This document shows, piece after piece, positions 8,458 through 56,999 of a stretch of 64,000 nucleotides of DNA. A program made the translations under genes and the position numbers. This DNA comes from Glandiceps talaboti (lineage: Eukaryota > Hemichordata > Enteropneusta > Spengelidae): the NCBI RefSeq assembly GCF_964340395.1, contig NC_135552.1, positions 20,834,181-20,898,180 of the forward strand. Direction: 5' to 3'. Every line of letters begins with the position of its first letter. Within the stretch, counting starts at the first letter, position 1. The notes beneath the pieces were generated by a model. That model saw only the letters and a list, made by a program, of their open reading frames with translations, had not been told where the DNA came from and ran no database searches.

Positions 8458-9075
8458 TTACAACTGAAAGGATATATATATATACATAATTGTGAGTACC
8501 TCATTTTCTGAAGTCTTCTTAGCCTTCCGTTTTAATCGAAATAATTTCCCGATAGGACTTTTCTTTGGCGTCTGTTTTCTGTTTGGTGATGTCTTCTTAG
8601 TTTTCTTAGGGGATACATGATGTCCTTCTGCTAAGACATTGGCTGCATCCTGTGGTGGCTGTGGTAAATCATCAACATACAATGCGTTCATGTCATCGGC
8701 ATATTTTTCAATCACCTTCTTCTTCTTGTATCTTGCCTCTATTTCTTTCATGGTCCTTGGGATGCGTACATCACATATACAACATGCAATGATTACTGTG
8801 GGGATCAAAGAATTACAACATGCAATGATTAGAGTGGGTATCAAACATATACAAGATATACAATGATTACTGTGGGGATCAAAGAACCAGGATCAAGTAT
8901 TCATGATATCTCTACATCAGTTTACATTACGTACATCATCACTTACACACATGTATAAAATGCCAGAGTTGGTTTTCACAATTTAAAGATATAGTATGGT
9001 ATGTGAAATTATATGCATGCATACCATCCGTCTACACATTTATACACAAATATTGCATGGCCTATTGATACACAC

Positions 9076-19400: not shown

Positions 19401-20559
19401 TTCTCTCGAGTTCTTTTCGTAAAGTCAAATTTGGTATCATTTTGTCTTCACTCAGTACATTACATGACTCTTCAACTGTAGTTATGCTGCTTTCACAAAT
19501 CAAACTGTCAGACTCTATTTGTTCAGGTGTATGTTTCTGACGCCTCCTTAATTTCATTTTCCTAGTACCTCTTATCTGCTTACTTATTGCATGTTGGTTA
19601 TCCTGTGTGGAAGACACGTCATTACAAGTATTACTGTCAATTTTAGTTGGTATACAGATAGGAGGAATGTGTTCATTGTTATTCTGGGACGCCCCTAAAG
19701 TTGCAGCTATGATAGATTCACAACTTCCTTGGTTCTGATCATCAATCTCCACTGATTGTCTTTTGTCGATATTGTCTTTGTTACTTGCTTCCCTGAATCC
19801 ATCTTTTCTAGAGTTGTTTGTTTGAGCTGCAAAGACAGGTGATTTATACTCCTTACTACCCCCAGAATTGTTACTGACAATGTCAGCTGGTGAATTCACT
19901 TTTCTTTGTCTCTTCAGTGGCTTCCTTCTCTGTTTTGTTGTTTTGTTAATGTCTACAACTTCACTAATTGTAGTGACATCATTACTACTTCCAATGACAT
20001 CACTGCTAATTTCAATGACATCATCACTTTTTGCAGAAAACAGTTCCTCTGTATTTTTTTGACAGTTTGAGGCATCATTGACGACATTCAGCATGGTGTC
20101 CATTCTCTGTCCTTCTAATGAACTGATTTTTTCATCTGTAGCTTTCAAAGATTTTTTCTGTTGAGATGCCGAATTCAATGTCCTAGGACTTCTCCCTTGG
20201 CTGTGTCTATGTCTACGTTTTGTTGTCAATGATATGCTATCATCAAGTGAGTTTAAAATGATTGACACTGGTGTATTACTTGTAGTGGTTTGTTTTCCCT
20301 CACATTCCGAGTTCTTCACATCAGGAGATGTATTCTTCATAGTTGTTACTGCCTGTTGACTGTCCACCCTGACATGTCTTGTCTTCTCCATCACTGTATC
20401 TTTCAATATTTCATTCTCTTTCCGTATATCAACTGAAACCATATCAATTTCAAATGACTGTCTCTTGACCTTTTGTTTCCCTCTAGCGATAAGGCTATCA
20501 TCTAAGTCACATATAAGGTCCAAGTCGGTGTCTTCATCTTCATCTTCATCATCATCATC

Positions 20560-20592
<33 letters not shown>

Positions 20593-21341
20593 TTCGCTAT
20601 CTTCTGACTGTCTCTCATCTCCTTCCACTACACTGCCTATTTCTCCATCATTATATGTAGCATCTCCTGTGACTGCATCTTTGCACTGGTCATCTAAACC
20701 TAACTGATTGTCATCCTTACATTGATTTGAACTATGAGATCCTTCTAGATTAGATTCAGGAATGGTTGATACTTGTACAGTGTTAATTATTTCTTTGTTC
20801 CTGTCTTTACTGTGATACCCTACAGTATGTTGATGAGCACTGGTAGGTGTCGGTAGGATAAAGCCTGGTGTATCATCTGACATCTCAGCTGTATGTCTGG
20901 ACTCCCCATTGCTGCCATCAGTTACTGACTTTATATCAAATTGTTGAGTTGAACTATTCTTCTGGCTAACAACACTCTCCATGACATCTTTATCACATAG
21001 TTCCTTATTTCCTTCAAGTACTTGTTGTTGAATACCTTAGCAGTAATAAAAAAATAATAATTTTGGTATTAGGCCTAAAAAAATTGTTAGGTTCCACCTA
21101 GTTTTTCACTGATGATCCTAAACGTTACTGTCATTTTCCAATCTGACTAACATATTATGTTTTTGATGATTTCAGCCTACAATGTCCATGTTTTCCATTT
21201 CTTTCCTACACTCATTTGATACAAGATGTTGCCATCGCAATGGATTGTCAACTAACTCTCAAGACAATGGAAGAGTACAGTATCCATAGTTACCTGTCAG
21301 TGGTTTATCAGTTCGTTGTATGACAATCCTATCTTTGTTAC

Positions 21342-21375
<34 letters not shown>

Positions 21376-24300
21376 TGATAATTCCAAGGATTCTGTTGTA
21401 CTACCATCTAACTCATCATTCATGTCCATACTTGGTTTATGACATTCTATATGGTCACCATCTGTAGATCTACATCCTGCAGGGTCATCATCTGTGGACC
21501 TGCAACCTGCAAGGTCACCATCTGTAGACATGACATGGCCATTATCTGTGATAGGAAAATGGTACATGTTTGTATCTTATTAATAGTATATGAAAAAAAC
21601 GAACAAACCAACTTGCAGTCAGTGATTTCAGAACTTAACAACAATGTTGCTAAACAAGAATGTGTCACCCAATAGTCATATCAGTCTCTTGGTTATAAAA
21701 AAGTTTGTATCAAAGTGGAGCTGAGTTGCATGGTTACAGGTGTCACATCATGTTATAGCTGTACTTAACTTACAGTACAGAAGAAGTAACATGCAAGACA
21801 AGTACTGGTAAATTAATAGACATTACCTTTTGAAAGGTCATCTTGCTGACTGTTCTGAAGATGTTTAGTTTCGGCACAGAGTGCATCCCCATCATTTAGA
21901 CTGCCCTCTAGTGTCCAATCTTTGTCTGACAAACATTGCGAAATCTTCAGTTCATCACTATCGTCTTCTAACACTGTGTTTTTCAGTATGTGACCTATAA
22001 CATCTTGACTACTGGGAATAAACTCATCCATGCTCTTCTTGATTGTTTTTTTCTTTTTACTGTTTCTTGATTTCTTGTTCTTGTCTATCAAACCGTTTAC
22101 ACTGACTGAAAAAGCAAGGCTTGGACAATTGATGGTAGCATCAGTGTTTTCAAATGAGTCAATCTGTGGATCAGACTCAGTGATTGCTTTCCTCTTTTGA
22201 TTAGAAGTCGTCTTGTCAAGATCAGTGGTGTCAGTGTCCATCATAGCTTCCAGTGACATATCGGATCTCATCATCTTTATGTCATCAACATTATCTGCCG
22301 TTTCTGCCTCAAAGTCTAGTGACACTTCCCAATCATTCACAATTTGATCACTTCTTTTCTTAACTTCAGTATTTTCAGCAGATTTCTTCCTACCATGTTT
22401 CTTGCCTTTGCTGTATGAATTCATAAAGACTTTACTACTGGTAGACCCTCTGGTAAAAGTAGAGAAGTCGTCATCCAAGTCAACTAAGCCATTATCTCTG
22501 TCATTTGTAGCTTCAGTATCTTTCCCTCTCTGGCTGCTTCTTGTTTGTCTCCTCTCCATGGCAACCCCATTTTCAATATTACACACGCCATTGGTAGCAC
22601 CACTTTCAATTAGTTTCTCTTTTTCATTGCCAGCATCCTTTCCCTTTGTTTTGTCCAAAGTATCACACTTAGTTTGTGTGACTGTGAAGTCTTTCAGATT
22701 TTCTGTTCCGGCTTCATTTCTATCTGATACTATGGCAACACAAGGTTTTTTCCTACTGGGTCTTTCACCACTACTGCTATGCCCTCTCTTGTTAGTAATT
22801 CTAGTTGTTTTCTTCCTCTGTGCCCTGCCTTTCTTCCTAGGAGTTCGTTGACTTGGTATAAATTCATAAGGATCTACATCAGACGTAGAAGAGCCAGTGA
22901 TAGCATTCCTACTTGATACTTTGGATGGCGAGATGAAAACATTTTCTTTTTCTTGACATACCCGTTCTGAGACACTACCAGAATTCTTTACTGGTATCCT
23001 TTCTATTTCTTGCAGGTTGTTTGTTACAGATGTTTGGTGAACTTGAGACTGTAGCGATACAGGACCATCAACTTGACCTAGCTGTACATCATCATCATCA
23101 CAACTGTTAAGTCCATTTTGTTGTCCAAGTGTTGGTAGTTTCTCTAACTCCAATATCAAATCTTGTCTTCTAGTTCTTACAGTATGATCAATATCAGGAT
23201 ATGAAGGCTCTCTCTGCCTTCTTCCCTTCCTACCTTTTTGATTAGTTGAAGATGGAGCCGGAAAAGAAGAACTGTGGAAAAGAAATTCAAAGAACTTGAA
23301 TTGATCAGTATTATATTCAGATAGGGCAAGTTTGTAGAGATGTCTGTTTACCATTTATACTCAGAGTAAAAAACCTGGCTATACTGATGATACGACTGGC
23401 TAGCTAAAAATAATATTTATGTCAACAATATTTGCTAATTTATCATACTGGTACTTGTGATTGAATATTTAGAACTAAATTACTGGGGTATTAATAATTA
23501 TGGCAAATCTTCTCAACTTTAAAAAACCAACATCAGCAATTTTATACCATCTTATCATATAACATATCCAAAACTAGACAAAGTATGGCACATATCAACC
23601 TTATCAGACATTATTGTTTGCGATAAAGACAGCTTGTATGCTGGAGTCCAAACTTGGACAAAGTACGGCATATTATATCAACCTTACCTGACGTTAGTGT
23701 TTGTAATAAAGACATCTAGTCTGCTGGAATCACTCTCGTAATCATCATCGACATACACTGGGATACTTGTACTTTCAGCCTTCTTTTTCTTAGCAATTCT
23801 TGTATTTTTTCTCTTTGTTCTTTTTCCAAAAGAGGTGGCACTGGTCTGAAAGAGGTACAAAATTGAGGTAAAATTAAAAATAAACACAATATATGAAATT
23901 AAATATCATGAGTACTGAACGATGACAATAAGATGTAAAATATATCAAAACCCTTGGTAGAAATATCCCTGAATTATTGAAACAAATATTTTTCCCCAAC
24001 AAAACCTGATCATTGATAAATCCATACCTGGTTTATTCCTGTTGTGGCATTCTGTATTTTTTGACTTGACCTAGGAGAAGGTTGTGAGGCCATGATAGGA
24101 CCACGTGGTGGTGTACCTGTAAATAAAACATGTATAATCACATTTCTCTGAGTGAACAGAAGTAAAAATATGAATCAAGTAATCAACCAACCAAGCAATC
24201 AATCACCAAGAAGTTACAAAGGTTTGAAATCCATTAATTTGCAATGTTCAATTTATAGGTGTCAATCAAAGATTTACAAAACACCAGGCTGAGGTTTAAA

Positions 24301-26224: not shown

Positions 26225-27763
26225 AATGGTGTAGCTAATGTCCTGGGTTTTGTTTCAATTACAACATTGTACACACGGAACTGTGCACTTCACTTGTCTG
26301 CCTTATGAAACACTGTAGTACTCACGCTCGATCACATACACCTTTAGGTTACAATATTCGTATTTTGTCAAAAATATGTCTTCTAAATAGCATCAAAATA
26401 TCACAGTTGTCAAAATGCATATATATGACAAAAGTTAACCAATAAAAATTAAACTAAATAAAGGCTTCGCTCGCAATTTTGCCAGTGTCGTCATCAAACT
26501 CACTGCACAGAAATGTACAAGTTGGATCTTCGTGTCGTCGCCATATTCGATTTTCCCGCAAAATCTCACCCATCACGTGATCAAATTGGTAAGGTAATGT
26601 TTCTTCTCATAAAGTGCAACAAGCTGGCTATGGGATGTTTATAATGTGCCATTCACCAGCGCTTCCAAAACTAGTACCATTTCATTTCTTAACATGTGAA
26701 AAAAGGTAAAACGATAATTTTATTTATTTGCGAGAATAGATGTCGCGATATCGTGATAACCTTCGAGAGTCAAACACGTACGCAGTGGCTTGTGGGATAT
26801 GTAAGAGAGGGTCATTCTTGGGTCATGTTGCATTACTTATGGTGTGGCAAATTACGTTGACAACATTGGAGGATATTTCTGTTGAATAAAACACAATACC
26901 CTTAATTTTTCATAACAAGTGAGTATCGTACAACTTTCTTCTATTTTATTGAAACGGCGAGTTCTTAACGAACTTACTCTCGTGGTTAAATTGTTCGAAA
27001 CGATCAGAGTCGCAAGTTACTCGCATTCGTACGTGTGAATTGCATCACTTCAGTCTTCAATATTCAATATTCAAAATCATAATATTATTGACACTTCGAG
27101 TGGCTATGTTCACGACTATGTCAAGTTCAACGTACATTCTCCATTCAATGATCGAACCTTTCTGATAAAACTGTGTCATTAATCGACAAGGTGGATGAAG
27201 ACGTGTTTGTATTCCGTCAGTATTCAAAGAATCAAGAAAATCTTTTTGGCCCAAAGCAGTGTGTTAATGCACATTAGGTGATTTGACATCTGTTGATTTG
27301 ATTTGACACCTACCACCCTATTAATTGTCATTTCTACTGTTATAACTTCAAATTTTGCAAATTGCTAAATTTCATTCAAATTTACTTCTTTATTTTACAC
27401 CAATATACGAGTATTAAACCTCTGTTTACAAATGTAAATATGATCAAACGTTCTTGTGATTCTATTATTTCCGGGTAGAAAGTTTACATGTTTATAATGA
27501 TTATGATTAAAAATCTCTTAATTTTGAATTCATGACTTCGTGGGTGTTAGCACATTACACTACTCTGAAAAAGTTGACGTGTATATTTGTACATGTACCG
27601 GGACATGTACTTGTACTTACATTGTTTGGGTAAGTTTGATATGCTTACCATGAATTGTGGACGTCATACCATTTATTGCCATTGTTATTCTTCTATTTTA
27701 CATGATTTAGTTGCGTCCTCAAGGAAATCAGACCAGGATTTGAACAGTGCTAAAGACACCAAG
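26225..27763. promoter_or_regulatory. Divergent promoter region, BRCA1 / MMADHC
   Basis: The two genes start in opposite directions, with 1539 bases between the ATGs. It contains GCCATATT (YY1-like, 26540-26547), TTTTCCCGCAAAA (an E2F-type site, 26551-26563) and TCACGTGA (a palindromic E-box, 26573-26580). A plausible MMADHC noncoding first exon ends at CAA|GTGAGTAT near 26920, and its partner acceptor, GATTTAG, is near 27710. Sites are from consensus only. Confidence 0.5.
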
Positions 27764-36186: not shown

Positions 36187-39100
36187 TTAACCCTTCCAGA
36201 TCAATGGAAAGGTATCACACAATACCCGATCACCTGGTCGCAAACCACCTGTGATTGGTGGAGACACATCCCAAGGTCTGGTTGCTATGACAGCATCATC
36301 ACCGACCCATCTAGTGGATAAAACTCTTCTTGGTGTTGTCAAGGAAGTATTTGCTGGTGCACCATGGACAGTCAACATATGAAACACAACACAGTCACCA
36401 GGCTGTAACAGTTTTGTACAATGTAGTCAATATATGAAACAATGCAGTCACCATGCTGTGAAAGTTTTGTACAAATCAGTCAATATACGACACACAATAC
36501 ACTCACTGGCCTGTAAACGTTTTGTATAAATCAGTCAATATATGACACACATTAATGTAGTAACCAGGCTGTAACAGTTTTGTACAATGTAGTCAATATA
36601 TGAAACAATGCAGTCACCATGCTGTGAAAGTTTTGTGCAAATTACTCAATATGCGACACACAATACGGTCACCAGGCTGTAACAGTTTTGTATAATGCAG
36701 TCAATATATGAAACATAGTGCAGTCACCAGGTAGTACACATTTTGTACAAATCAGTCAATACAGATGAAACACACATGACAACGGAATATTAAGCAATAC
36801 ATAGTTTGCATTTTCTGAAGTTTGTGATTTTGTGAAGTTTGTCGTATTGAAAAGTAATCTCAAATAGAAATGGTGAAAAATATTGATAAAGTCCAGAATT
36901 TATCCTACCTGCATTTCCCATTTCAAGATATCACCTTCTGGGATTTCTTTATCGATATCAGGCATATCTTCATAGATTTTATCATCAGTATGGTTAGCAT
37001 TCCGCCCATAATTCAAAGATGTTGCAAACTTTCTCGGATGAAACCATTTACCCCATCGGTGAGATCCTCTGACATATTGGATGCTGGTTTCAATGGAAAC
37101 ATGATCAATTGGCATCCAAATGGAACAAACCTGAAAATAAATGTTATAATAGACACAATTTACAAATCTACTCACCAAATACATATTTAGTGTTCTAGAC
37201 ACTACAAACTTTTCTACTGAAAGTGACTCTCGAACAGTGCCCCAAAAGTAAAAATTCATCACCGCTCTCTGTTGTCTGAATTTCAAGACGGGTATCGCAT
37301 TGTTGTAGCTGTGCTGAAATTCAGTAATTAAATTGTGCAGTACGTAATTTTAGTAAATTGTGGGGTATCAAAATTCAGTAACTTGTGTTGAATATCAGAC
37401 CTATAAGGAGTTGAATTTCAGGCATGCTTGCACATAGTGCTCAGCTGAACTTGGATATGAGTGCAGTGCTGAATAACATTACTACAGCAGTACAGCAGAA
37501 TAACCCATTCACATGGCAGGACTACTGTGTTTTCTTTATGTAATATATTGTCTGTTACATCACTTTTGGTGGCAAGTGGCATTATGACTATCAATTTCAA
37601 TCCAGGTATCTGTTAATTGCTTGCAATTAATTTCTATCGATCAATTCTTCATATTTTTCCTTTCTTACAGTGAAAACATTTGGCATAAAATATTGACCAT
37701 TTTTGGAATACATTCCTTCAACATTTTCAACACAGTTCTTCAGCAGGAAATTTTGGATAATTGGTTCTGATTTTAAATTTTTGGTTGATAACTATATGGG
37801 TGTTAAGAAATGCAAATAAGTAGAATCACCTTGTTGCCATCTACAGGATAGTATGCTTGATCATGGTGCCATGGTGTTACTTTGGATGTATCTGGATCTT
37901 TAGTTAACACATGCTCATGGTAAAATACTACTTCCTGTCAACACAAAACACATTATTAGTAATTTACATAAATTTACGTTTATTAAATGAAAGATACTAA
38001 ACTGTATTTTCAAGTGTCCCATGACAAAAAACTATACATAATTAACAAACATCAACAACAGTGACTCTATCTTAAGTTCATTGCATTGTCTATTTACAAT
38101 TTCAAATATATGTTTTATTTGATGACGTGTTTTACAATGGGCAAACATGGATGTCTGCTAGATGTCTGATAGATTATGTTAGATTATGTTAGATGTATGC
38201 TAGATTATGTTAGATGTCTGCTAGATTATGTTAGATGTCTGCTAGATTATGTTAGATGTCTGCTAGATGTATGCTAGATGTTGATAGATGTCTGCTAGAT
38301 GTATGCTAGATTATGCTAGATGTATGCTAGATGTTGATAGATGTCTGCTAGATGTATGCTAGATGTCTGTGCTAGATGTCTGCTAGATTATGTTAGATGT
38401 CTGCTAGATTATGTTAGATGTCTGCTAGATTATGTTAGATGTTGATAGATGTCTGCTAGATGTATGCTAGATTATGCTAGATGTCTGCTAGATGTCTGCT
38501 AGATTATATTAGATGTCTGCTAGATGTCTGCTAGATGTTGATAGATGTCTGCTAGATGTATGCTAGATTATGCTAGATGTATGCTAGATGTTGAGAGATG
38601 TCTGCTAGATGTCTGCTAGATGTATGCTAGATGTCTGCCAGATGTCTGCTAGATTATGTTAGATGTCTGCTAGATTATGTTAGATGTCTGCTAGATGTAT
38701 GTTAGATGTTGATAGATGTATGCTAGATGTGTGCTAGATGTTGATAGATGTCTGCTAGATGTATGCTACATGTTGATAGATGTATGCTAGATGTTGATAG
38801 ATGTATGCTAGATGTTGATAGATGTTAGCAGAGAGATTAGAAGACTTACAAGAGGTATATAAGTCGATCAGTGTCATAAAAATGTAAGCAATCTAATTTT
38901 CATAGCAAAAGTGAAAATTAGCATCATATTATTCTATGAAAAATAAGGAATGTCAATAATGTATATCAAACTTTTTGGTGCATGTACTTCAAGAGACGGA
39001 TTGACAATATGTTTTTTAAAACTTTACTTTTAGTAAATTATTTTTAAACCAAATCTCTAGCTCTTACCATGATGCTGACTCATCTCAAACTGAAAGTCCA

Positions 39101-41724: not shown

Positions 41725-42755
41725 GGGACCAGACAGTTTCTTCGGCCGGGGGTGTGTGGATTTGTGTGTGTGTGTGTGTTTGTTTGTTTGTGTGTGTGTG
41801 TGTGGGGGGGGAGGTCACCCTGTTTTTGAAATTGACAGGGGGGGGGGGGTCATGCTGTTTTGAAAATTGTGGAGGGGGGGGGTCATTGTGTTTTGGATTG
41901 TGATGGAAGAAAACAATCCTTTTCTACAATGGTGTATAGCCTTGTCTGAAATGTGGTACATGTAAATATTTGTTCTTGTCCCTGTTTCTTACATGAATCC
42001 TTTACTATTACTTATTAGTTCAAACATAACTATACATATACATATACATGTATTACCTAGCTACCACACTAGTTACAGAACTTGTCATGTAAATGCTTGT
42101 TTCTCACAAGGTTGAACGTCATAGATAGTTTATAAAAGAAGTTAATCTAACTTGTTCTACTTGTCAGTATGAACTTGTCAGAAGGGATTAATACACTTTC
42201 TATTTTGGACACTATATGTTATTGACACTACAAATCACCACATCTCATCAGATTCCAGTTTATATTATACACTAGGTATGACCACCTAAAGTTCTCTAAC
42301 ATACCGGTGACTTTACTATACATGCAATATTAATGCCCCTATACCAATGTTACGGGCTCATTTTTATGTGACATGGGAAACTCGTTTAAAACTTACAGTT
42401 ACGTTAGCTTTTCGAAGCTTGGAAATATTACCTCGAAGACCATTATGAATAATATAAACATTGCCCTGTGTAGTCAATAATTATAATTATGATAGTGCTA
42501 ACCCGGGATCTTATAAGTAGATGCAAGACAGTCAAGCAGTCCACACTGAGTCACGATCAAAAAATACCTAGCTGTCATGTGAATATCATATATGGGGGGG
42601 GGGGGGTCATCATGTTTTAGAATTAAGTGATGGGGGGGGGGGGGTCAGCCTGTTTTTGGTTGTACAGATGGGGGGGGGGGGGGTAGTGACTTTTTGTCGG
42701 CCCGATTTAGGAATCCAACACCCCCCCCCCCAGACTGGAGAAACTGACCAGTCCC
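41725..42755. mobile_element. Non-autonomous DNA transposon, Harbinger-like ends
   Basis: Ends are GGGACCAGACAGTTTCTTCG (left) and, reversed, GGGACTGGTCAGTTTCTCCA (right), both followed inward by a long G run. They are flanked by TTA on each side (41722-41724 and 42756-42758). A 3-base TTA target duplication with GGG-starting ends is typical of PIF/Harbinger elements. The interior has no transposase frame, but it has repeated G-run plus GTCATGCTGTTTT and GTCAGCCTGTTTT blocks near both ends (41800-41890, 42592-42690). Its right end is 86 bases from the GLB1 ATG. Confidence 0.6.
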
Positions 42756-42841: not shown

Positions 42842-45800
42842 ATGGCAGTAGGTACGAGGTGTAACTTGTTTCCAGTGTTGGTTTTTATCATCATCATTAC
42901 TTCTCTGAGTGATTACGCAGTGAGTATTGGCATTTTTCCGTCACATAAAAGCACGTAGTTCAAATTGTGGCCGACTTCACACCCACACAATGCCTCGTCA
43001 CTATTTATTCACAAGTAATGTCATACGTACCATAACAAACTTGTGTGAATTAAAAAGGACACCTCCCCCCCCCCCCCCCCCCCAAGGTTAAGTCTGGCTA
43101 CAATGATTGTGTAGCGTTATGATTTTGAGTTTGACTTGTTTTTTTCTTCTGTTTTTGTGCTTTTTTGCGTTCCGTTAGTTTAACCGCAGAGCAAACAGTT
43201 CAAATGAAACTGAAATGAAATGAAAATTGAATGAACAACCTTCCAAAAAAACCTCAAATTCAAAACTATTAATATAATTACAAATATTGATATACAAATG
43301 TGCACAGTGCAATATTAGGAGCAGAGCATTACAAACTTAATCCAAGGAACTAGGATGTCACAAGATGTAACTTGGAGTTTCACACTTTAGCAATCTTAAA
43401 CGACTGATTCAGCTTGTCAAGGTGTTTGTTCATATAAAATTTAATTGCATTGCAATGGCTGTTGCTAAAGAGATCGTCAGGCGATTCTAATTTCTACGTT
43501 TTATGGGATTTTCTGATGTGATTAGCATGGTAGAATTTATTCTTGAGGTAGTAGTTCGAAACCAACTCAGATCTTTTGTTGTATTTTTTTTTCAATTATA
43601 TAAAATATGAGTTGTTAGTTTTGTTAAGTACGATAACTTTCTATTAATGCTCGAGTCATGTACACCGTGAACAGTATTGCATCAGCTGTGGATAAACATA
43701 GTTTTGTAGCTGTATGCATGGTATTAAATTCAAATCAATTGATTCTTGGGTCCACATCCAAAAATCAGGACCTTCAACAACAGCAATCACGATTTCCACC
43801 TGTTTCTGTATTTCTTATGGATAATATTGACCACTGAATAGCATTTACAATGTCCAACTATTGGTAATTAAACAATTTTCAGTGAATATAATGTAGTTGT
43901 TTGATCAAAAACTGATACTGCAGTTACACCACTACAGTTTTAACATGGTGACATATTCAAAACCAAGCCTATACTCAAAATTTAAACTGGCCACTACACT
44001 ACCTACAGATAATATTGACCACTAATTAACAAATGCAATGTCACTTTATAAATAACTGACAAATTTTTAGTGAATATATCTTTGGTTATTCAATGACGAA
44101 AAATATTTATTAATTACTCAAAATTTTGAAAGCCAGTACTGTTATTTTCTTTTCCATGAATTACTTTAGGTGATTGGAAGGTCTTTCTCAGTTGACTACA
44201 AGAACAACTGTTTTTTGAAAGATGGTGAGCCATTTCGTTACATATCAGGCAGCATTCACTATGCTAGAATACCTCATTACTATTGGCAAGATAGACTCAA
44301 GAAAATGTATACAGCTGGTTTGAATGCCATACAAATGTAAGTATGAAATGTACACAGCTGGTTTGAATGCCATGATACAAATGTAAGTATGAAATGTACA
44401 CAGCTGGTTTGAGTGCTATACAAATGTACTAAATGTATACAGGTGGTTTGAATGCTATACAAATGTAAGTATGAAATGTACACAGCTGGTTTGATAGCCG
44501 TGATACAAATGTAAGTATGAAATGTACACAACTGGTTTGAATGCTATACAAATGTAAGATGAAATGTATACAGCTGGTTTGAATGCCATACAAATGTAAG
44601 TATGAAATGTATACAGCTGGTTTGAATGCCATACAAATGTAAGTATGAAATGTATACAGCTGGTTTGAATGCTATACAAATGTAAGTATGAAATGTATAC
44701 AGCTGGTTTGAATGCCATACAAATGTAAGTATGAAATGTATACAGCTGGTTTGAATGCTATACAAATGGAAGTATGAAATGTACACAGCAGGTTTGAATG
44801 CCATACAAATGGAAGTATGAAATGTACACAGCTGGTTTGAATGCCATACAAATGGAAGTATGAAATGTACACAGCTGGTTTGAATGCCATACAAATGTAA
44901 CTTATGAAATGTATACAGCTGGTTTGAATGCTATACAAATGTAAGTATGAAAATGTACACAGCTGGTTTGAATGCTATACAAATGTAAGTATGAAATCTA
45001 CACAGTTAGTTTGAATGCCATACAAATGTAAGTATGAAATGTACACAGCTGGTTTGAATGCTATACAAATGTAAGTATGAAATGTACACAGCTGGTTTGA
45101 ATGCCATACAAATGTAAGTATGAAATGTACACAGCTGGTTTGAATGCCATACAAATGTAAGTATGAAAATGTACACAGCTGGTTTGAATGCCATATAAAT
45201 GTAAGTATGAAATGTACACAGCAGGTTTGAATGCCATACAAATGTAAGTATGAAATGTACACAGCAGGTTTGCATGCTATACAAATGTAAGTATGAAATG
45301 TACACAGCAGGTTTGAATGCTATACAAATGTAAGTATGAAATGTACACAGCAGGTTTGAATGCCATACAAATGGAAGTATGAAATGTACTCAGCTGGTTT
45401 GAATGCCATACAAATGTAAGTATGAAATGTACACAACTGGTTTGAATGCCATGATACAAATGTAACTTATGAAATGTATACAGCTGGTTTGAATGCCATA
45501 CAAATGTAAGATGAAATGTATACAGCTGGTTTGAATGCCATACAAATGTAAAATGAAATGTACACAGCTGGTTTGAATGCCATACAAATGTAAGATGAAA
45601 TATACACAGTTAGTTTGAATGCTATACAAATGTAAGTATGAAATGTACACAGCAGGTTTGAATGCTATACAAATGTAAGTATGAAATGTACACAGCAGGT
45701 TTGAATGCCATACAAATGTAAATATGAACTGTACACAGCTGGTTTGAATGCCATACAAATGTAACTTATGAAATGTATACAGCTGGTTTGAATGCCATGA

Positions 45801-48800
45801 TACAAATGTAAGTATGAAATGTACACAACTGGTTTGAATGCCATACAAATGTAAGATGAAATATACACAGTTAGTTTGAATGCTATACAAATGTAAGTAT
45901 GAAATGTACACAGCTGGTTTGAATGCCATACAAATGTAAGTATGAAATGTGCACAGCTGGTTTGAATGCTATACAAATGTTAGTATGAACTGTACGCAGC
46001 TGGTTTGATAGCCATACAAATCGATTGTATGAAATGTACACAGCTGGTTTGAATGCCATACAAATGTAAGATGAAATGTACACAGCTGGTTTGAATGCCA
46101 TACAAATGGAAGTATGAAATGTACACAGCTGGTTTGAATGCCATACAAATGTAAGATGAAATGTACACAGCTGGTTTGAATGCCATACAAATGTAAGTAT
46201 GAAATGTACACAGCTGGTTTGAATGCCTTACAAATGTTAGTATGAAATGTACACAGCTGGTTTGATAGCCATACAAATATAAGTATGAAATGGATACATG
46301 TACAGCTGGTTTGAATGAACAGATTTGTGGAAAAAGACCTAACACCCTGTGTGGGACTACTAGGTAATTTTAACTTTTTAATAGTGATTAGGTTGGTATA
46401 TTTTCCTTTATAGATTTGTTAATAAGCATTACTACTTGCCTACTTGCTGCACTTTGGGACTGACAAAACTTAAGATCATGATGTGCAATCATTCAGCTTT
46501 GCTAACTAATAGGCAACCCAAGATGCATTGTGCTCATTTGCAGGAGTTTTATAGTCATGTTTCCAGTTTCAGACTATAGTTGTTAAGATGTATTATCTGT
46601 AGTAATTTAGTACAGAAGTGACTTCTATGATATATCGTGACTTGAATCCTTTACTACTTATTTCCTGGTATTTTTTTTATACCATAGATATGTACCTTGG
46701 AACATTCATGAACCCAAGCCAGGACAGTTTAACTTTAAAGATGAAGCTAACTTGCCATCATTTCTACAAACTGCTAATGACACAGGACTGTTAGTCATTG
46801 CAAGGATTGGTCCATATATATGTGGAGAATGGGATATGGTAAGTATACAACTTATGTAGAATCAAAATGTTCATAGTGTCTGATCACTGACTTTTCCATG
46901 GCAATTAAAGCACTGAGTTTACTCAGCCTGTATGTTGTGGGTTGGGAGGGCAGGCTGAAGCATACAATATGTGAATTATCAGGAGTGGACCATAGAATTT
47001 GCAATGATAGAAATTGTTGGGGATGGTTCACTGTGATACAAATGTAGATTTAACATTCAGATAGACAGTCCTAATACTCAGACTCCGTAGAAATATGTAA
47101 ATATTCACATAACAACAAAGAGTCTGCTCCTTCAGAACCTTGTATTAATTATAAGGACAGAAAATCACACATTTCTACTCATTGTCTTTCAGGGTGGTTT
47201 GCCATCATGGCTGCTGAAAAATAATCCTGATATTCAGCTAAGATCTTCAGATCCTGATTATCTCACACCAGCTTTGAGTTGGATGGATAATCTCTTACAA
47301 CTCTTATCTTTATATCTGTATAAGAATGGAGGGCCTATCATTACTATACAGGTAAAAATAACTAAGCCACTGGTATAGAGACAATCACTATTCAGTCATT
47401 GTATAAGAATGGAGGGCCTATCATTACTATACAGGTAAAAATAACGTATAGAGACAATCACCATTCAGTCATTGTATAAGAATTGAGGGCCTATCATTAC
47501 TATACAGGTAAAAATAACTTAGCCACCGGTATAGACAATCACTGTTCAGTCATTGTATAAGAATGGAGGGCCTATCATTACTATACAGGTAAAAATAACT
47601 TAGCCACCGGTATAGAGACAATCACCATTCAGTCATTGTATAAGAATGGAGGGCCTATCATTACTATACAGGTAAAAATAACTTAGCCACCGGTATAGAC
47701 AATCACTGTTCAGTCATTGTATAAGAATGGAGGGCCTATCATTACTATACAGGTAAAAATAACTTAGCCACCGGTATAGACAATCACTGTTCAGTCATTG
47801 TATAAGAATGGAGGGCCTATCATTACTATACAGGTAAAAATAACTTAGCCACCGGTATAGACAATCACTGTTCAGTCATTGTATAAGAATGGAGGGCCTA
47901 TCATTACTATACAGGTAAAAATAACTTAGCCACTGGTATAGACAATCACTGTTCAGTCATTGTATAAGAATGGAGGGCCTATCATTACTATACAGGTAAA
48001 AATAACTTAGCCACTGGTATAGAGACAATCACCATTCAGTCATTGTATAAGAATGGAGGGCCTATCATTACTATACAGGTAAAAATAACTGACCGCTAGT
48101 CACTGATATAGACAATCACATAATTACTATAATGACTACATTACTATGTAGCCTGGTGTCTTGAACTGAATATCTTGTTACAGCTGTTTTACTGTTACTT
48201 GATTATAAAATACAGTTTCCAAGTATTTGTTGTCACTTTACCAAAGTACATTTTTTTGCTGTTACTTGACCAAAATACAGGTGTTTTTTTTGCTGTTACT
48301 TGGTCATGATACAGTTTGCAGAGGATACTCTATTGACAGTTAGCTGAATTAGATTTTGTTTCGGTCATTTTGGTTTGACTTTCAAGTTTTGAAATATTAT
48401 TAAATGTGTTTTATTTTCACATACTTTGATGTCTCTGTTTTCCATTTAACCCTTAGAATCCTAGCACAACCATTATCTTTTTACATGGACTTGACCTGAA
48501 TAGGGTTTTTAATAATCTTGTTATTCATTATGTACAGATTGAAAATGAATATGGTAGTTATTATGAATGTGATTATGATTATCTAAGAGCATTGAGGAGT
48601 AAAGTTGTTGATGTGCTTGGTGATGATGTTGTATTGTTTACAACTGATGGACCTTCTAATAACATGTTAAAATGTGGTGCATTACAAGGTGTTTTAACTA
48701 CTGTGGATTTTGGAGCAGGTGAGACTCTCTTATCGGTCTTGTACTTTGTCAAATAGAAGAGGATTATTTCATCATAGCAAAGAAAGAGAAAAGAAAAAAT

Positions 48801-48955
48801 TGAAACAGATTTTGTTGTCTCTAATCATATATCGTACTATATTATTTTAACATTGTCTATTAAAAGGAAGAAGAAAATATTAATATTAAAGACACTTCAA
48901 ACCTGTTTATCTGTTCAACAATCTTTGAATAAAATTATTGTCATTAATTTACCTC

Positions 48956-49004
<49 letters not shown>

Positions 49005-52000
49005 CACTCACTCACTCACTCACACATACACACACATACACATGCCCATGCATACATGCATACATGCATACATACATACATACATACATACATACATACA
49101 TACATACACATACATACATACATACATACATACATACATACATACATACATACATACATACATACATACATACATACAAACAAACATGCACACACACAAA
49201 CATACACATGCACATGCAGACACACATACACACACACACACACACATACACATGTTCACATACATGCACACACAGACAAACATAAACAAAAAACAAACAC
49301 ATACACAAATAGATACAAAAGTAATTATAGTTTAAGAAATTTATAGTTTGAATAAACTTAGTAAACAAAATTCTGTGGTTTGCCTTTTCAGGTGGTGATG
49401 TCAGTAAACCTTTCAGTGAATTGAGAAAATTTCAGCCTAATGGTCCCCTAGTAAGTGTAACTATTTATGTCACCCAGTGTATTACCCTTAGTGTTCATTC
49501 TCAGCCTAATGGTCCCCTAGTAAGTATAACTATTTATGTCACCCAGTGTATTACCCTAGCGTTCATTCTTAGCCTAATGGTCCCCTAGTAAGTGTAACTA
49601 TTTATGTCACCCAGTGTATTACCCTAGCGTTCATTCTTAGCCTAATGGTCCCCTAGTAAGTGTAACTATTTATGTCACCCAGTGTATTACCCAAGTGTTC
49701 ATTCTTAACCTAATGGTCCCCTAGTAAGTATAACTATTTATGTCACCCATTGTCATACCCTTAGTGTTCATTCTCAGCCTAATGGTCCCCTAGTAAGTAT
49801 AACTATTTATGTTACCCAGTGTCTTACCGTTAGTATTCATTCTCAGCCTAATGATCCCATTCTCAGCCCAGAAATCCAACCAAGTACATATTGAGTTTTA
49901 ACATTCAAGCTATAAATACAGGTGTTCATTCAAATACATGTTTGACTTGACAAGCAATCTGTTTTGTGTTCTGTGGACATTTTACAGACATATTAGAAGT
50001 AAACACCTGTTGGAAAAAAATAGTATTTCCATACTTTGATCTAGTATTTAAGCTAGATTATAGGTTCATCCCTCTATTGTACAAATAAATTGACTAAATT
50101 ATAGCATTTTGTCTAATGAAAACATCACTTCAAGAAAGTATTGCAGTGATTGGATATGATATAATAACACTAGATATAACAAATTGAATATGGTAATAGG
50201 TTACGGCACAAGAATGTTGTATGAAGGATAAAATACTATGCTTAGCATTGCTACCGTTTTGACTTAGGGTCTATATTTAATCACCCTGGTAATATATTCA
50301 ATGGGACAATGCATACTTTGTCTGTTTCTATTACTAGGTCAACTCAGAGTTTTATACAGGTTGGTTAGATCATTGGGGTCATGCCCATGCTGTGGTCAAT
50401 AAAGACAAAGTGACCAAGTCATTGGATGACATACTTGCTATGAATGCATCTGTTAATATGTGAGTATATAGTAACACAAATATCCATCACAGACATTAAT
50501 ATGACTAGTAGATAGAGGGATAAAATGGAGTGTTTGAAAACTATACATTGATGGGTAAGTTAATGGTACTGGTATGTTTGTGTTTATGAGTACATCCAGA
50601 TCCAAACAGAGGCTGCAAGTCTTATGTGTATTTTTTACCGACAGGTACATGTTTGAAGGTGGCACTAACTTTGGATTTATGAATGGTGCCAACTATGCTC
50701 CATACAAGCCACAACCAACCAGTTATGATTATGATGCACCATTGACTGAAGCAGGTGATCCCAATGACAAGTACATGGCCATTAGACAAGTGATAGCAAA
50801 GGTATGGAACCATACTACTTTTAAGTTATGCTGATAGATCAGATGTAGAGAACTGCTTGACCTTTACCCCAGACCATACCACTCCTTCAAGGGGTGGCCA
50901 ACTCTAATTGAGGATGACAATGATACAAATTTATATGATTAGGAAGTGCACACTACCAGACCCTATCCCACCACATAAAGTGATGATTTTATCTCCTTTC
51001 ATTTTCAGTACAGACAACTACCACCAGACCCTAACTCACCACATAAAGTGATAATTTTATCTCATTTCATTTTCAGTACAGACAGCTACCACCAGACCCT
51101 ATACCACCACATAAAGTGATGATTTTATCTCATTTCATTTTCAGTACAGACAACTACCACCAGACTCTATCTCACCACATAAAGTGATGATTTTATCTCT
51201 TTTCATTTTCAGTACAGACAACTACCACCAGACCCTATACCACCACATAAAGTGATGATTTTATCTCTTTTCATTTTCAGTACAGACAACTACCACCAGA
51301 CCCTATCTCACCACATAAAGTGATGATTTTATCTCATCCCATTTTCAGTACAGACAACTACCACCAGACCCTATCTCACCACATAAAGTGATGATTTTAT
51401 CTCTTTTCATTTTCAGTACAGACAACTACCACCAGACTCTATCTCACCACATAAAGTGATGATTTTATCTCCTTTCATTTTCAGTACAGACAACTACCAC
51501 CAGACCCTATACCACCACCTACACCAAAATCAGCCTATGGTCAGATCACAATGTCTAAAATGTCATCATTTTATGATGAACTAGATACAATGGCACCGTA
51601 TGGACCAATCAAGGCAACCTACCCAATCACTATGGAAGATATGCAACAGGTCAGTGCAATGGGAAAGACGTCAAGTACTTTTTATTACCCGTGGGACATC
51701 TGGGTATTTGAATTTGCCAAAATATATTTGCATCCCAAGACACCTTGGATTGGGTCAGTCTTGTTAAATGTAAACACAAAGTTCTGAGAAGACTGTAAGT
51801 TACCATCTTATATCCCATAATACATTCTGTAATGCCGTAATGAAGTATGAGATACATACAACACTACAAGTAAGTCATGAATTGTCAACATATAAAGTCA
51901 GTCTAACTGATATCCAGTATACATTCCTTAATTTTAATGGCATTCATTTCTTTCTTGCACCATTTCTTTTTCAGAGTTATGGTTTTATGTTATACAGAAC

Positions 52001-54430
52001 TACAGTACCAACAAATAGCAGTGATTCTTTACTTAGTGTCCCTGGTATTAGAGATAGGGGATATGTACTCATCAACCAGGTAGGTTAACACCCCCTCCCC
52101 CCTGTGCTGTAGTACCAACAAATAGCAGTGACACTGTACTCATATATGCACTCATCAACCAGGTAGTTACCCCCAATGCCCCTCAACCTCTGTATATTTT
52201 CATATTCGTTGCCCTTGTTGTTAAAGTATGGGAACAATGTAGTTGCTTGTTTGTCAACCTACAATGAGCACTGTCCAGAGGGGACTATAGAAATGGCCTA
52301 TGTCCATTTGACAGTGCATGCTGTCATCATGTACAGCCCTAGTATAGCTATACCACATATAACTCAATCTCAACCAGTTTATTATAGTTAACAGTATGTT
52401 ACATTATGACTATGGATGTTGTCAATCATTCAGTGTATTCACCTGCTAATTATCTTTGACCTCTAACTAAGAATTTATCCTTGTTTTCAGACTGTGGTAG
52501 GTATTTTATCCAGAATGACCAATGATCCTAGTCTGAGTACAACTCTGAACATTACAGCTGTGGCTGGTGATACACTGGATATCTTGGTGGAAAACCAGGG
52601 ACGAATAAATTATGGAAGTCACATAAACGACTCAAAGGTAAGGGATACAATAGCAACTGCTATCAGTCACATAAATAACTCCAAAGGTAAGGGATACAAT
52701 GGCAACTGCTATCAGTCACATAAATAACTCAAAAGATAAGGGATACAGTGGCAACTGCTATCAGTCACATAAATAACTCAAGGTAAGGGATACAATGTCA
52801 ACTGCTATCAGTCACATAAATAACTCAAAAGGTAAGGGATATTTTACAACTTCTATTTTTGATGCAGTCACATAAATGATTTGGATACTTCTATGCTGCT
52901 ATCTTTGTAGTAATTTAAATGGATCTATGGTGAGTTCAAAATGAACTGATTGTGTATTATAGCACACCTCCAAATATATTTATTTGTGGCATCAAAGTCT
53001 AGCATAAGTGAGGCAACATAGTATGTGGAACCAGAGACAGTGGAGGGGACCTATGATGGAACTTTTACCTCAATAGGTACCGACAAGAGTGATTTAAGTC
53101 GTGGCACATCACACAATATATTTTAGTAGTAGAGTATACTGTGTAGTATTTTGTGTGGACAGTTTGATTTTGTAAAATATGAAAATACAACAGAATTGTC
53201 CAGATAAAGCTTACAGTATATATTGTACAACCATAGCATCAAATTAAATTTTAGAAGCATATTTATCTGAATGGCTGATCTGAGATATAGTAATTCCTCA
53301 TTATGTGTGGCAAATGCTTTCCTGTTTTGGTAACATTTTGTTGTTTTTCAGGGAATTGTTGGTAATGTCACCATTGAGGGCGCTGTACTACAATCCTGGA
53401 GTATTTATTCATTGGACTTGGATGCTGTCATTAACCCTAGCTACGTCATCAACAAGAAAATAAACTTGAAGTACAGATCCAAGAAAACAGCAACTTTACA
53501 GACACCTTCATTTTATACTGGTACACTTAGTGTTGATACAGTACAGGACACTTTTCTTAACACTAAAGGATGGACAAAGGTAGGGGTCATATCAGGTCAC
53601 ATACTTAATGTTGATACAGTATAGGACACTTTTCTTAACACTAAAGGATGGACAAAGGTAGGGGTCATATCAGGTCACATACTTAGTGTTGATACAGTAC
53701 AGGACACTTTTCTTAACACTATAGGATGGACAAAGGTAGGGGTCATATCAGGTCACACACTTAGTGTTGATACAGTACAGGACACTTTTCTTAACACTAA
53801 AGGATGGACAAAGGTAGGGGTCATATCAGGTCACATACTTAGTGTTGATACAGTACAGGACACATTTCTTTATAACACTATAGGATGGACAAAGGTAGGG
53901 GTCATATCAGGTCACATACTTAGTGTTGATACAGTACAAGACACTTTTCTTAACACTAAAGGATGGACAAAGGTAGGGGTCATATCAGGTCACACACTTA
54001 GTGTTGATACCGTACAGGACACTTTTCTTTATAACACTATAGGATGGACAAAGGTAGGGTTCACATAAGGTCATTATATATTTCTGAAAAGTCACATGCT
54101 ACAATGTTATCATTGTTACACAGTGCTCCAATAACTGAATTTTTATTGTTTCACTTTCTTTTACACTAGGGTCAAGCATACATAAATGGTTTTAATTTGG
54201 GTCGTTACTGGCCAGTAGTTGGACCACAGTTAACTCTCTATGTACCAGCCAGTGTACTTACAACAGGAGATAACACCCTGACTGTCTTTGAACTGGAAAA
54301 TGCACCATGCAATGATGATGGAAACCATGGTAACCATCTATGGAATAATGACTGTCAATTTCAATTCATAGACAGACCTATCATAAATTCCACAATAGCA
54401 GTGATGGAAGACAACTATTGGATAAAGTGA
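42842..54430 (+). CDS. GLB1: Beta-galactosidase, lysosomal type (GH35)
   Basis: GLB1 removes terminal beta-galactose from gangliosides and glycoproteins in the lysosome. Thirteen coding exons: 42842-42919, 44170-44336, 46688-46838, 47193-47351, 48538-48718, 49392-49450, 50338-50459, 50645-50801, 51485-51649, 51975-52079, 52491-52637, 53352-53579, 54170-54430. All phases join, giving 659 residues (human 677). Exon 1 is a signal peptide with a [11 protein letters not shown] core. The TIM barrel follows: [41 protein letters not shown] holds the acid/base Glu, [13 protein letters not shown] the nucleophile Glu, and [11 protein letters not shown] closes the barrel. C-terminal beta domains have [29 protein letters not shown] and GPQLTLYVP, close to human. 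Seven junctions are embedded in minisatellites made of junction copies. Exon 9 is preceded by seven decoy acceptors, and exon 2 is followed by about 46 decoy donors. The gene otherwise looks intact. Confidence 0.97.
44337..46312. repeat. 43-base minisatellite of GLB1 exon 2 donor junction
   Basis: About 46 units, each carrying exon-end sequence (ACAGCTGGTTTGAATGCCAT, then ACAAAT) followed by GTAAGTATGAAATG. The first junction, 44336/44337, is the true donor. Many units keep a good GTAAGT donor. Variants include GGAAGTATG (GT lost), GTAAGATG, GTAACTTATG and ATGATAC. The minus-strand open frames here are artefacts of the repeat. Confidence 0.97.
47352..48090. repeat. 81-base minisatellite of GLB1 exon 4 donor junction
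   Basis: Nine extra copies of the exon end (GGAGGGCCTATCATTACTAT, then ACAG) plus GTAAAAATAAC follow the true donor at 47351/47352. Units differ mainly by CCACCGG or CCACTGG and by GAGA insertions. Downstream donor use would read VKIT then a stop in most copies. Confidence 0.97.
48957..49315. repeat. (CA)n / (CATA)n microsatellite in GLB1 intron 5
   Basis: CA run, then CACT, then a long CATA tetranucleotide tract, then mixed CA and CAAA. Open frames of His/Thr or Cys/Val repeats on both strands come only from this composition. Confidence 0.98.
49451..49870. repeat. About 69-base minisatellite of GLB1 exon 6 donor junction
   Basis: Five extra donors after the true one (49450/49451). Each has CAGCCTAATGGTCCCCTA (exon end) plus GTAAGTGTAAC or GTAAGTATAAC, TATTTATGTCACCCAGTGT and TTCATTCT. 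The last copies decay near 49850. Confidence 0.95.
50950..51484. repeat. 68-base minisatellite of GLB1 exon 9 acceptor junction
   Basis: Acceptor-type units end CATTTTCAG|TACAGACAACTACC. Pseudo-exon starts fall at 51009, 51077, 51145, 51213, 51281, 51349 and 51417, exactly 68 apart, and the true exon start is 51485. A partial unit lacking the acceptor begins at about 50950. All seven decoys have the polypyrimidine tract and AG. Confidence 0.97.
52108..52168. repeat. Partial duplicate of GLB1 exon 10 donor junction
   Basis: TAGTACCAACAAATAGCAGT, then ACTCATCAACCAG|GTAG, repeats the exon 10 end (about 52005-52081) with an internal deletion. The decoy donor reads GTAGTTAC and the true donor GTAGGTTA. 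Confidence 0.85.
52638..52845. repeat. 49-base minisatellite of GLB1 exon 11 donor junction
   Basis: After the true donor (52637/52638) come four copies of CAGTCACATAAATAACTC, AAAG and GTAAGGGATACAATGGCAAC. In one copy the donor is GATAAGGG and therefore dead. Confidence 0.93.
53580..54070. repeat. 78-base minisatellite of GLB1 exon 12 donor junction
   Basis: Six copies end at 53657, 53735, 53813, 53894, 53972 and 54053, with unit lengths 78, 78, 78, 81, 78 and 81. Each contains 50-plus bases of exon end (ending GGATGGACAAAG) plus GTAGGGGTCATATCAGGTCA. All lengths are multiples of three. The frame is open through every unit except one TAG in the first. Confidence 0.96.
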
Positions 54431-56999
54431 TCATGTATAAAGTTCCTTTTTAATACACCTAATCAGCATATATATCCAGTGTGATCATCCTCCAAAAGTC
54501 AAGATGCAGGGTAAATTGTCAGTGTAACTGATATCACAGTAGTTACAAAGTCAGAGATGTTTTCATTAGTCCCCTGAAAGGAAGACTATTACAATGGGCT
54601 CTGTCTGTCTGTCCATGTGTGTGTGTGTGCGTACGTACGTACACGTGTCTGTCTGTCCATAATGTCATTTCTCAGACATTCAATGTCCAATTTCTTTCAA
54701 ACCTGTTGTAAAGGGGGCATGTCATATGGGATATATGCACGTTAGCGGCATATGCACATTTGACAAAATGGCGGCCATTTTTGGAGAAAACAGAGAGACG
54801 CCATTCAAATGTCTACCCTTGTATTATCAGGTGCAAGACTTTTAGCTTTGACCTTGATGTTGACCTCCAGGAGCAGTTTTCAAAATCAAGCCATTTCCTG
54901 CATATTACAGACACTTTGTAGTATCTATTTGTTCCCTTGCTACTAGTTTCTTTTAAATCACATTGCCATTCAGTCACACAGAAGTAAACTTTTTGAGGGG
55001 TTTGTGTCTTCTACAAGAATTTGTTTAGATAAGAGGATTCATTATACACATGCTGACTGATTGCAAGGGCAACAGTATATATATGTCTGTTTTCTCAAGG
55101 GACTGTGGGTCACCCCAACAAAGACTTTCCCTGAGGGCGAAGCCCCAGAGAAACAGTCTGTGTTGGGGTGATGCACAGGCCTGAATTAGACTGACCTATG
55201 ATGTTGCATGAGCACGATCAGTCAATATGTGTTTTGTAACACACCACTACCTACATTCTCACTCTCTCGGCACACTGTTCTATATGGTTAACACATGACA
55301 GTGATGATAGTTCAGAAAACAACACAGGACGAACATAGAAAACTGTAATTCTTGAATAATTATCAAATGTGTTCTTTCCGAATCCTTAATTCTGGCACAA
55401 GGATGGCAAGATTGTCTTCAGAAATTTGTACAAAAAACAAGATGTCAGGTTCGTTTGTTTTGAAAACATGTACTCATGACATCACCAGTCAACAGCTGCT
55501 AATGCTGTTGCCCATACAGGCAACATCATTTGCAGTCAAGAGCACAAAAACTATACATACCATGTGACCATGTATTGACGAATCACAACACAGGAAATGT
55601 ACAACATGTAGTAGGTTTGCTTCTGAATCAATGATTAATGTGTTATACAGCTATACACATAACTTCATTGATAGTCAGTTCAATATATCTTTAGAATGAT
55701 ATAAACCATGAAGTTATTATAGACATCAAAATATTATTGTAGCTGTAACTTTTTGAGGAGTTTCTATTTTGTTATAAACCAGATGTCAATATTTTGATTA
55801 AAATGTCAGTTTCAACTGTTGGAAGTTGGATGCCCAATTTATACTATATGAATGAGTGGTGTACATCTATAAGTTTTGGGAGAATAATTGCTCTCAATGG
55901 ACCATCAAACTCACAGAAAGAAACTATCATTGACGATACAAAGCTCTGTTTTTAATCATACTTTGATAATTTGAGAAGACCCCTTAATTGATCGGCTCAG
56001 TCCTCTACAAATACAGAAATAAAGTCTCTACAAAATGGATATTGTAACAGTAATCATTTATTTATTCACATTCATACAAGAAAATAAGGAAGGTAAATAT
56101 GCAGCAGATGAACACTGGTAACTTACTGTAAACAGAACAGAACAGAACAACAATTTTCAATTCCTGTGTGACAGAATTGTTTGACCCTTCACAATGTTGA
56201 CTTGGTAAAATTAACTTACAAGAGTATGGTAAGAGTAATTAACTTACAACTTACAGCTGGTAAGGAAATTTACAATATTTAAAAACCAGAGGGAGGTCAA
56301 AGGTTTCTCAAAGATTGTGAACTTGTAGAAAATCAAAACTTTCTCAACTATAAGGCATATAATTTGTAAACATGAGGATTGTTTAGATTTGTGTAGTATC
56401 GACACCATTGACAGGTAGAATGTGCCTCAGTGAGAAATGTTTATGAAAATCAAAGTTGTTTCAAAATTTGTCATACCAAAGCTTGATCCTGGTCCATGTC
56501 AAATTTGGGGTCCACCATCTTGTTTTCAAAGAAATCGATTTTATATTCCAATAATTTAAAAGCTTTTGGTGGTCATATGGAATTCTAAAATGGCTTAATT
56601 TTGAGAACATTTTGACCTAATATTTCAACATTTTGTACAGAGACCCCCTGATTTCTTAATCTTGATTTCAACTTCAGAATGGGTTGGACTTTACTTGAAC
56701 AAACATTTATTTTATTTCCAAGGTTCATTTCACATTAACATAGAATACAATGAGGTACACGTTTGAGACAAATAAACCCTTACTACAAAGACAATAAACA
56801 TATACACATATATTCTGTTCTACGTCTAGTAATTCAAAAACAGATTTCTGGGAAAAAGAAGTACAAAAATAATACTGTTTAGTTTCAAAATACAATATTT
56901 ACATATAGAGCCTTGATTATACTGTGTAAAAACAACTTTGAATAAATACCCTTAATAAAGGTTTTGCAGCTCAGCTGCATATCATTCTATTGCTTCCAT

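Follow-up and report, generated by a model that had tools for sequence, protein, structure and literature searches.

Tandem repeats across seven splice junctions of a GLB1 gene in the hemichordate Glandiceps talaboti

Seven of the 24 splice junctions of a GLB1 gene, here designated GLB1-A, carry tandem repeats: the donors of exons 2, 4, 6, 10, 11, and 12, and the acceptor of exon 9. All seven arrays cross their exon-intron boundary, as do the repeats known as mirages, and at all seven junctions the real site is the exon-proximal copy, that is, the 5'-most copy at the donors and the 3'-most copy at the acceptor. The phenomenon is thus a known one; what is new is its occurrence outside amphioxus and in several genes, together with a mosaic of shared exons and arrays in a pair of paralogues. 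We consider that the GLB1-A arrays are probably junction minisatellites of the mirage kind, with exon-proximal splicing that masks the duplicates and a mutational excess near the junctions. That the paralogues share exons together with arrays was not expected and is a distinct finding.

The GLB1-A gene and its junction arrays

The window, which is the whole stretch of DNA that was analysed (64,000 nucleotides), corresponds to C5:20834181-20898180 of the 590-Mb genome, and all positions given without a contig name refer to it. GLB1-A, the GLB1 gene of the window, occupies 42842-54430 on the plus strand and has 13 exons, which form a single open frame of 659 codons plus the stop codon. The exon edges were set by joining the 13 exons in frame and by alignment with the GLB1 chain 3wez, and GT-AG was found at every intron. 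The exons are located at 42842-42919 (exon 1, with the start codon), 44170-44336 (exon 2), 46688-46838 (exon 3), 47193-47351 (exon 4), 48538-48718 (exon 5), 49392-49450 (exon 6), 50338-50459 (exon 7), 50645-50801 (exon 8), 51485-51649 (exon 9), 51975-52079 (exon 10), 52491-52637 (exon 11), 53352-53579 (exon 12), and 54170-54430 (exon 13, with the stop codon). Residues 29-650 aligned with 3wez at 742 bits, and the array junctions were free of gaps. The array-bearing sites belong to an otherwise normal gene, as in the case of mirages. Immediately upstream of the gene, 35-38-bp repeats with long G runs were observed at 41801-42700.

Six strong arrays were detected by TRF, whereas the seventh, at exon 10, was not; all seven lie on the plus strand. 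The exon 2 donor array (44303-46292) has a period of 43 bp with 46.1 copies, and its unit consists of 34 bases of exon and 9 of intron. At the exon 4 donor (47317-48090), TRF gave 81 bp with 7.8 copies and a 162-bp row from 47317; there are 10 copies, including the last partial one, with 35 bases of exon and 46 of intron. The exon 6 donor array (49432-49858) has a period of 68-69 bp with 6.2 copies (19 exon and 50 intron bases), the exon 11 donor array (52617-52841) 49 bp with 4.7 copies (about 20 and 29), and the exon 12 donor array (53525-54073) 78 bp with 7.0 copies (55 and 23). The exon 9 acceptor array (50955-51518) has a period of 68 bp with 8.3 copies, and its unit consists of 34 bases of intron followed by 34 of exon. 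Since the exon and intron shares vary among the arrays (34+9, 35+46, 19+50, 34+34, and 55+23), there is no fixed distance of the cut from the splice signal.

In the case of the exon 10 donor, two diverged copies are found at 52004-52168 (limits set by eye), with a decoy donor after 52162. The donor-to-donor distance is 83 bp, which replaces the unit of about 69 bp given in the preliminary description of this DNA. Its count of seven arrayed junctions holds, six by TRF and exon 10 by eye and by alignment with the paralogue described below, in which exon 10 matches the second-copy piece 52113-52140.

Many copies in the arrays contain the AG or GT splice signals, which is also a feature of mirages. 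GT is kept in 39 of the 46 copies of the exon 2 array and in 10/10, 6/6, 4/5, and 7/7 copies of the exon 4, 6, 11, and 12 arrays, respectively, and AG is kept in all eight copies of the exon 9 array. For the 46 copies of the exon 2 array, the divergence at the GT positions was 0.076, against a unit average of 0.044; the exon 11 array was left out of the GT-divergence figures.

When the 590-Mb genome was searched with very common words skipped, the 81-bp unit of exon 4 gave eight matches at one site, in this gene only, and the 43-bp unit of exon 2 gave 48 matches at two sites, exon 2 of GLB1-A and that of the paralogue. As far as this search shows, the two units are not dispersed repeats. The preliminary description was right that the units are unrelated in sequence, and each of the two units searched matched only at its own junction.

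All six arrays of GLB1-A with a period of at least 28 and a score of at least 100 sit on junctions. Two other repeats of the gene lie off the junctions, namely a weaker array (score 85) at 48226-48317 and a CA/CATA microsatellite at 48957-49317.

The polarity noted in the preliminary description holds at all seven junctions, where it is fixed by the reading frame, and the same polarity was seen in the other junction arrays inspected by eye (in the exon sample, the neighbouring genes, and the C10 homologue; see below). Because the reading frame and exon continuity demand this polarity, it is not independent evidence. From the reading frame, we infer that the exon-proximal sites are used in the splicing of GLB1-A. 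Exact-pattern matching gave 68 decoy sites, of which 67 are predicted to lead to a premature stop; in 66 cases the stop falls more than 50 nt ahead of the last junction. The patterns missed at least one copy of the exon 2 array in which the exon edge is altered. The only decoy that leaves the full frame is the first one of exon 6, which adds 23 codons in frame.

A rule by which sites are paired across the shortest exon (exon definition) accounts for donors and acceptors alike. A rule by which the first-transcribed site wins would choose the wrong acceptor, because the frame-keeping acceptor is the last transcribed. The frame-keeping site is the first transcribed at donors and the last at acceptors, in agreement with exon definition rather than a simple first-come rule, and junction arrays are natural tests of splice-site choice.

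Exons and arrays shared with a paralogue

A second GLB1 gene, GLB1-B, is located on the minus strand of C5, 1.55 Mb from GLB1-A (C5:19309001-19329000). Its exons 2-13 form one open frame with GT-AG introns. GLB1-B has arrays at exons 2, 9, and 12 as in GLB1-A, with 67, 18, and 9 copies against 46, 8, and 7 in GLB1-A, and it has neither the arrays of exons 4, 6, and 11 nor the exon 10 duplication. The two genes fall into two classes of exons: exons 2, 3, 9, 10, 12, and 13 differ at 6.1% of synonymous sites, and exons 4-8 and 11 at 74%, near saturation (the edge of exon 5 was off by two bases in this calculation). The junctions of exons 2-13 are common to both genes, arrayed or not, although some exons are saturated; thus, the introns predate the arrays private to GLB1-A. 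The intron positions of GLB1-A presumably also agree with those of human GLB1.

The alignable blocks of the two genes are 44168-46317, 46674-46844, 50952-51651, 51968-52102, and 53346-54442, and on array-free sides they stop 2-23 bases from the exon edge. Beyond the arrays and microsatellites, no introns of the two genes aligned at E 1e-5, save intron 12, which lies within the last block. When 600 bases of intron 1, introns 2-4 and 8-11, and the 3' side were searched with a word size of 7, intron 10 gave short traces of similarity and the 3' flank a match of 40 bases.

The unit distances between the genes in the three shared arrays were 0.077, 0.052, and 0.052, and the net distances over those within genes were 0.004, 0.003, and 0.008. 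Identical variants common to GLB1-A and GLB1-B numbered five, one, and one. These distances and shared variants suggest that arrays already holding several variant copies moved with the exons. Each junction had been proposed to have acquired its array independently. This account is incomplete, since GLB1-B has three of the seven as multi-copy arrays with near-identical exons, and these three therefore did not arise anew in each gene.

Exon-limited gene conversion between paralogues produces near-identical exons flanked by unrelated introns. GLB1-A and GLB1-B resemble such pairs in both respects and differ in that the exons are accompanied by multi-copy arrays on their intron side. The exon and its array seem to move as a cassette between the paralogues, and gene conversion limited by islands of homologous exons would be the simplest account of the pattern of alignable blocks. 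We suggest, tentatively and with some doubt, that junction arrays are portable: many copies of an exon edge might offer a repair strand many landing sites, exon plus array might move as a cassette between paralogues 1.55 Mb apart, and some exons would stay uniform while the introns drift. If so, junction minisatellites would direct concerted evolution to particular exons of a gene pair.

Junction arrays in other genes and the mitochondrial contig

Junction arrays are not special to GLB1-A. In the window, a gene for a PhyH-like dioxygenase on the minus strand has an acceptor array at 36369-36761 (about 55 bp, seven copies; TRF, reading frame, and Pfam), in which the real acceptor is the 3'-most copy. 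A TMIE-like gene, also on the minus strand, has an acceptor array at 8773-8883 (36 bp, three copies; TRF and Pfam), for which the exon edge is predicted from the reading frame. Two two-copy donor arrays, both detected by TRF, belong to one unnamed minus-strand gene, of which two scanned stretches had no Pfam match: at 23577-23728, where the decoy GT is lost, the edge is predicted from coding score and frame, and at 17493-17630 from the reading frame. Across the window, 28 arrays have a period of at least 28 and a score of at least 100, and no fewer than 10 of them are on junctions. Among the other 18, exon edges were read for those at 6010-6163 and 14491-14689 only, which were not counted as junction arrays. 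Past the TMIE-like gene, a 28-bp minisatellite of 32 copies was observed at 10981-11880.

A GLB1-like homologue on C10 (C10:24252001-24282000; stretches L011-L013) has three donor junction arrays, at 11406-12297, 20440-20686, and 26236-26602 on the reverse strand of that region. Two of the arrayed introns are absent from GLB1-A and GLB1-B, and the third is about four codons from one of theirs.

We also studied an exon sample of 88 exons from Pfam matches in the genome, with flanks of 220-250 bp on each side. The 40 myosin exons were taken from 78 matches (from the first 41 by E-value without stops), and the 40 kinesin exons, without stops, from 142 matches by E-value, with a multi-copy family at profile positions 245-320 omitted except for one member. 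The eight kinase exons, short and stop-free, were chosen by eye from 132 matches. The number of exon ends examined was 175 (the kinesin stretch L086 has no low flank), of which a few may be gene ends. The threshold for arrays (period of at least 28 and score of at least 100) was set after the first exon sample was seen; flank arrays in L036, L056, L076, and L104 score at least 100 with shorter periods and fall outside it. The kinesin-motor exon of the omitted family is found on C22, C23, C9, C2, C5, C12, C15, C18, and C11, where its copies are often clustered at spacings of about 2 kb and have nearly equal scores; it may be read as a recently multiplied kinesin-like gene or as a mobile segment.

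Junction arrays were found at seven of the 175 ends: five donors (L034, L044, L062, L086, and L090) and two acceptors (L032 and L041), with none at the 16 kinase exon ends. Ten further flank arrays lie off the exon edges (L030, L031, L045, L054, L064, L072, L079, L097, L098, and L113). L045 was considered as a junction array and dropped, as its repeat includes a donor-like site and not the exon edge. In L064 (C12:386602-387269), a diverged two-copy duplication over the acceptor of a myosin exon was seen by eye; it was not so called by TRF, and this stretch was counted as non-junction. The array beside a kinesin exon in L079 (C11:2237207-2237937) has a 44-bp unit that resembles an inverted repeat.

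Three null models were compared with the seven junction arrays of the sample. When each of the 17 arrays was represented by one unit placed randomly in its own flank, 2.46 were expected (local null, P 0.006). The number of units per ancestral base in random stretches predicted 1.11 (ancestral null, P 0.00016); the random control consisted of thirteen 10-kb stretches, in which 12 arrays covered 2.5% of bases. However, the raw array coverage predicted 4.39, and this null was not exceeded (P 0.16). We argue that the coverage null counts expanded bases and therefore overstates the target; the excess at junctions depends on counting ancestral units rather than bases. The suggestion that splice junctions themselves seed duplications thus gains from the first two nulls and not from the third, and it is plausible but not shown. 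A genome-wide count makes it testable whether splice junctions are mutational hot spots.

With 7 of 24 junctions arrayed, GLB1-A is an outlier relative to the sample rate of 7/175 (P 0.00003), although the gene was preselected for its arrays. The ratio of donors to acceptors was 16:5 (P 0.027) in a pool of GLB1-A (6:1), which was preselected, the C10 homologue (3:0), the three other window genes (2:2), and the exon sample (5:2), with the paralogue excluded. The exon sample by itself gave P 0.45; thus, the donor excess is a lead and not a result.

The mitochondrial contig (C40; stretches L107 and L108) repeats every 15,435 bases and has three COX1 matches, which gives it the appearance of a head-to-tail concatemer. 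Among the codons of eight mitochondrial genes on L108 (of which ND4 is partial), AAA, AGA, and AGG are absent. The anticodon-containing loops of the tRNAs are CTCTTAA for Lys and CTGTTAA for Asn. COX1 has four ATA codons; in the alignment with the PDB chain 7o37_a, Ile or Val stands opposite three of them and Met opposite the other. According to the part of PMC3121625 that includes Table 3, Balanoglossus reads AUA as Ile and AGA as Ser, has neither AAA nor AGG, and has the loops CU GUU AA (Asn) and CU CUU AA (Lys). In the same source, cephalochordates read AUA as Met with a Lys UUU, and echinoderms read AUA as Ile with a Lys CUU but use AAA and have the Asn loop CC GUU AA. The code of this contig, so compared, points to that of Balanoglossus, not to that of cephalochordates or echinoderms. 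At least 23 contigs of the genome exceed 10 Mb; two hemichordates also have 23 chromosomes, in larger genomes of 1.16 and 0.93 Gb (PMC11175523), and this lends the hemichordate placement weak support. Cytochrome b is located between ATP6 and COX3; by contrast, nd5 and cob are adjacent in Balanoglossus and Saccoglossus according to the portion of PMC2697986 used here.

Origin of the arrays and comparison with known systems

For the observed anatomy, polarity, frame consequence, and occurrence in several genes, we propose the following course of events. A short stretch over the exon-intron border (43-83 bp for the units of GLB1-A, 48-141 bp in the exon sample) would be duplicated in tandem, owing to a putative mutational excess of duplications close to junctions, and the duplicated pair would then expand or contract as any minisatellite does. 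The exon would remain joined to the exon-proximal copy, and the mRNA would be unchanged if the spliceosome follows the shortest-exon rule. The use of a decoy would nearly always introduce a premature stop and probably send the mis-spliced RNA to nonsense-mediated decay. Once established, an array could travel to a paralogue along with its exon.

If duplications instead arise evenly along genes, with exonic ones purged and junction ones hidden by exon-proximal splicing, tolerance would be sufficient and no seeding would be required. This possibility deserves attention, though we do not think it probable: the failure to exceed the coverage null and the ten non-junction arrays in the same sampled flanks speak for it, but the excess over the local and ancestral nulls and the position on junctions of all six strong GLB1-A arrays, and of 10 or more of the 28 in the window, speak against it. 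Retention of the decoys for a function, e.g. regulated mis-splicing with decay or U1 recruitment, would agree with most decoys being intact and with the stops at 67 of 68; however, the GT positions of the exon 2 array vary more than its unit average, the intact copies elsewhere follow from low overall divergence, and the paralogue does without arrays at exons 4, 6, 10, and 11, so that we regard a function as improbable.

It is still less probable that the arrays are relics of intron birth through tandem duplication, the route proposed for amphioxus globins in the part of PMC3087553 consulted. The C10 homologue, with arrays at two introns absent from GLB1-A and GLB1-B and at a third about four codons off, would suit this route, but in GLB1-A the array-bearing introns do not appear younger than their neighbours, as the junctions of exons 2-13 are also present in the paralogue, although its exons 4-8 and 11 have diverged from those of GLB1-A to near saturation. 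An assembly artefact is the least probable of all. Long arrays are hard to assemble, and the mitochondrial contig itself looks like a concatemer of head-to-tail copies. Yet the copies within arrays differ mutually, the same units are present in the paralogue in other numbers, and unrelated genes also have short arrays of two copies. We therefore retain the reading of junction minisatellites with exon-proximal splicing and a mutational excess near the junctions as the probable one.

Intron gain is reportedly known to have occurred by internal tandem duplication in the potato RdRp gene. GLB1-A is similar to this kind of event in that the duplicated unit includes splice signals, and differs in that the duplications lie on existing junctions and no resulting new intron was seen. 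The model of Rogers for such gain is cited in the consulted part of PMC3087553.

The link to amphioxus mirages made in the preliminary description is confirmed by PMC3087553, as far as its consulted part goes. In the parts of PMC3087553 and PMC3902484 used here, lancelet mirages are tandem repeats that span exon-intron boundaries in Adh3, the globins BflGb6 and BflGb9, troponin C, and PGBD5; RT-PCR suggests regular splicing, and length instability is reported. The globins have repeats at one boundary each (3-6 units in BflGb6), and PGBD5 has them at both the 5' and 3' splice sites. The mirage work met in a narrow literature search on minisatellites in hemichordates concerns lancelets (PMC3902484, in part). 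The arrays of GLB1-A are like the mirages of amphioxus in that they are minisatellite-like, span a donor or an acceptor boundary, and have splice signals in many copies. For mirages, the same partial sources describe apparently normal mRNA, whereas for GLB1-A an intact frame is known from the genomic sequence. Mirages, in those sources, are cephalochordate, whereas the arrays described here are from a hemichordate, occupy seven junctions in one gene, reach 46 copies (67 in the paralogue), and are shared between paralogues. With the hemichordate placement, mirages are not a lancelet oddity, and they may be old or recurrent among deuterostomes.
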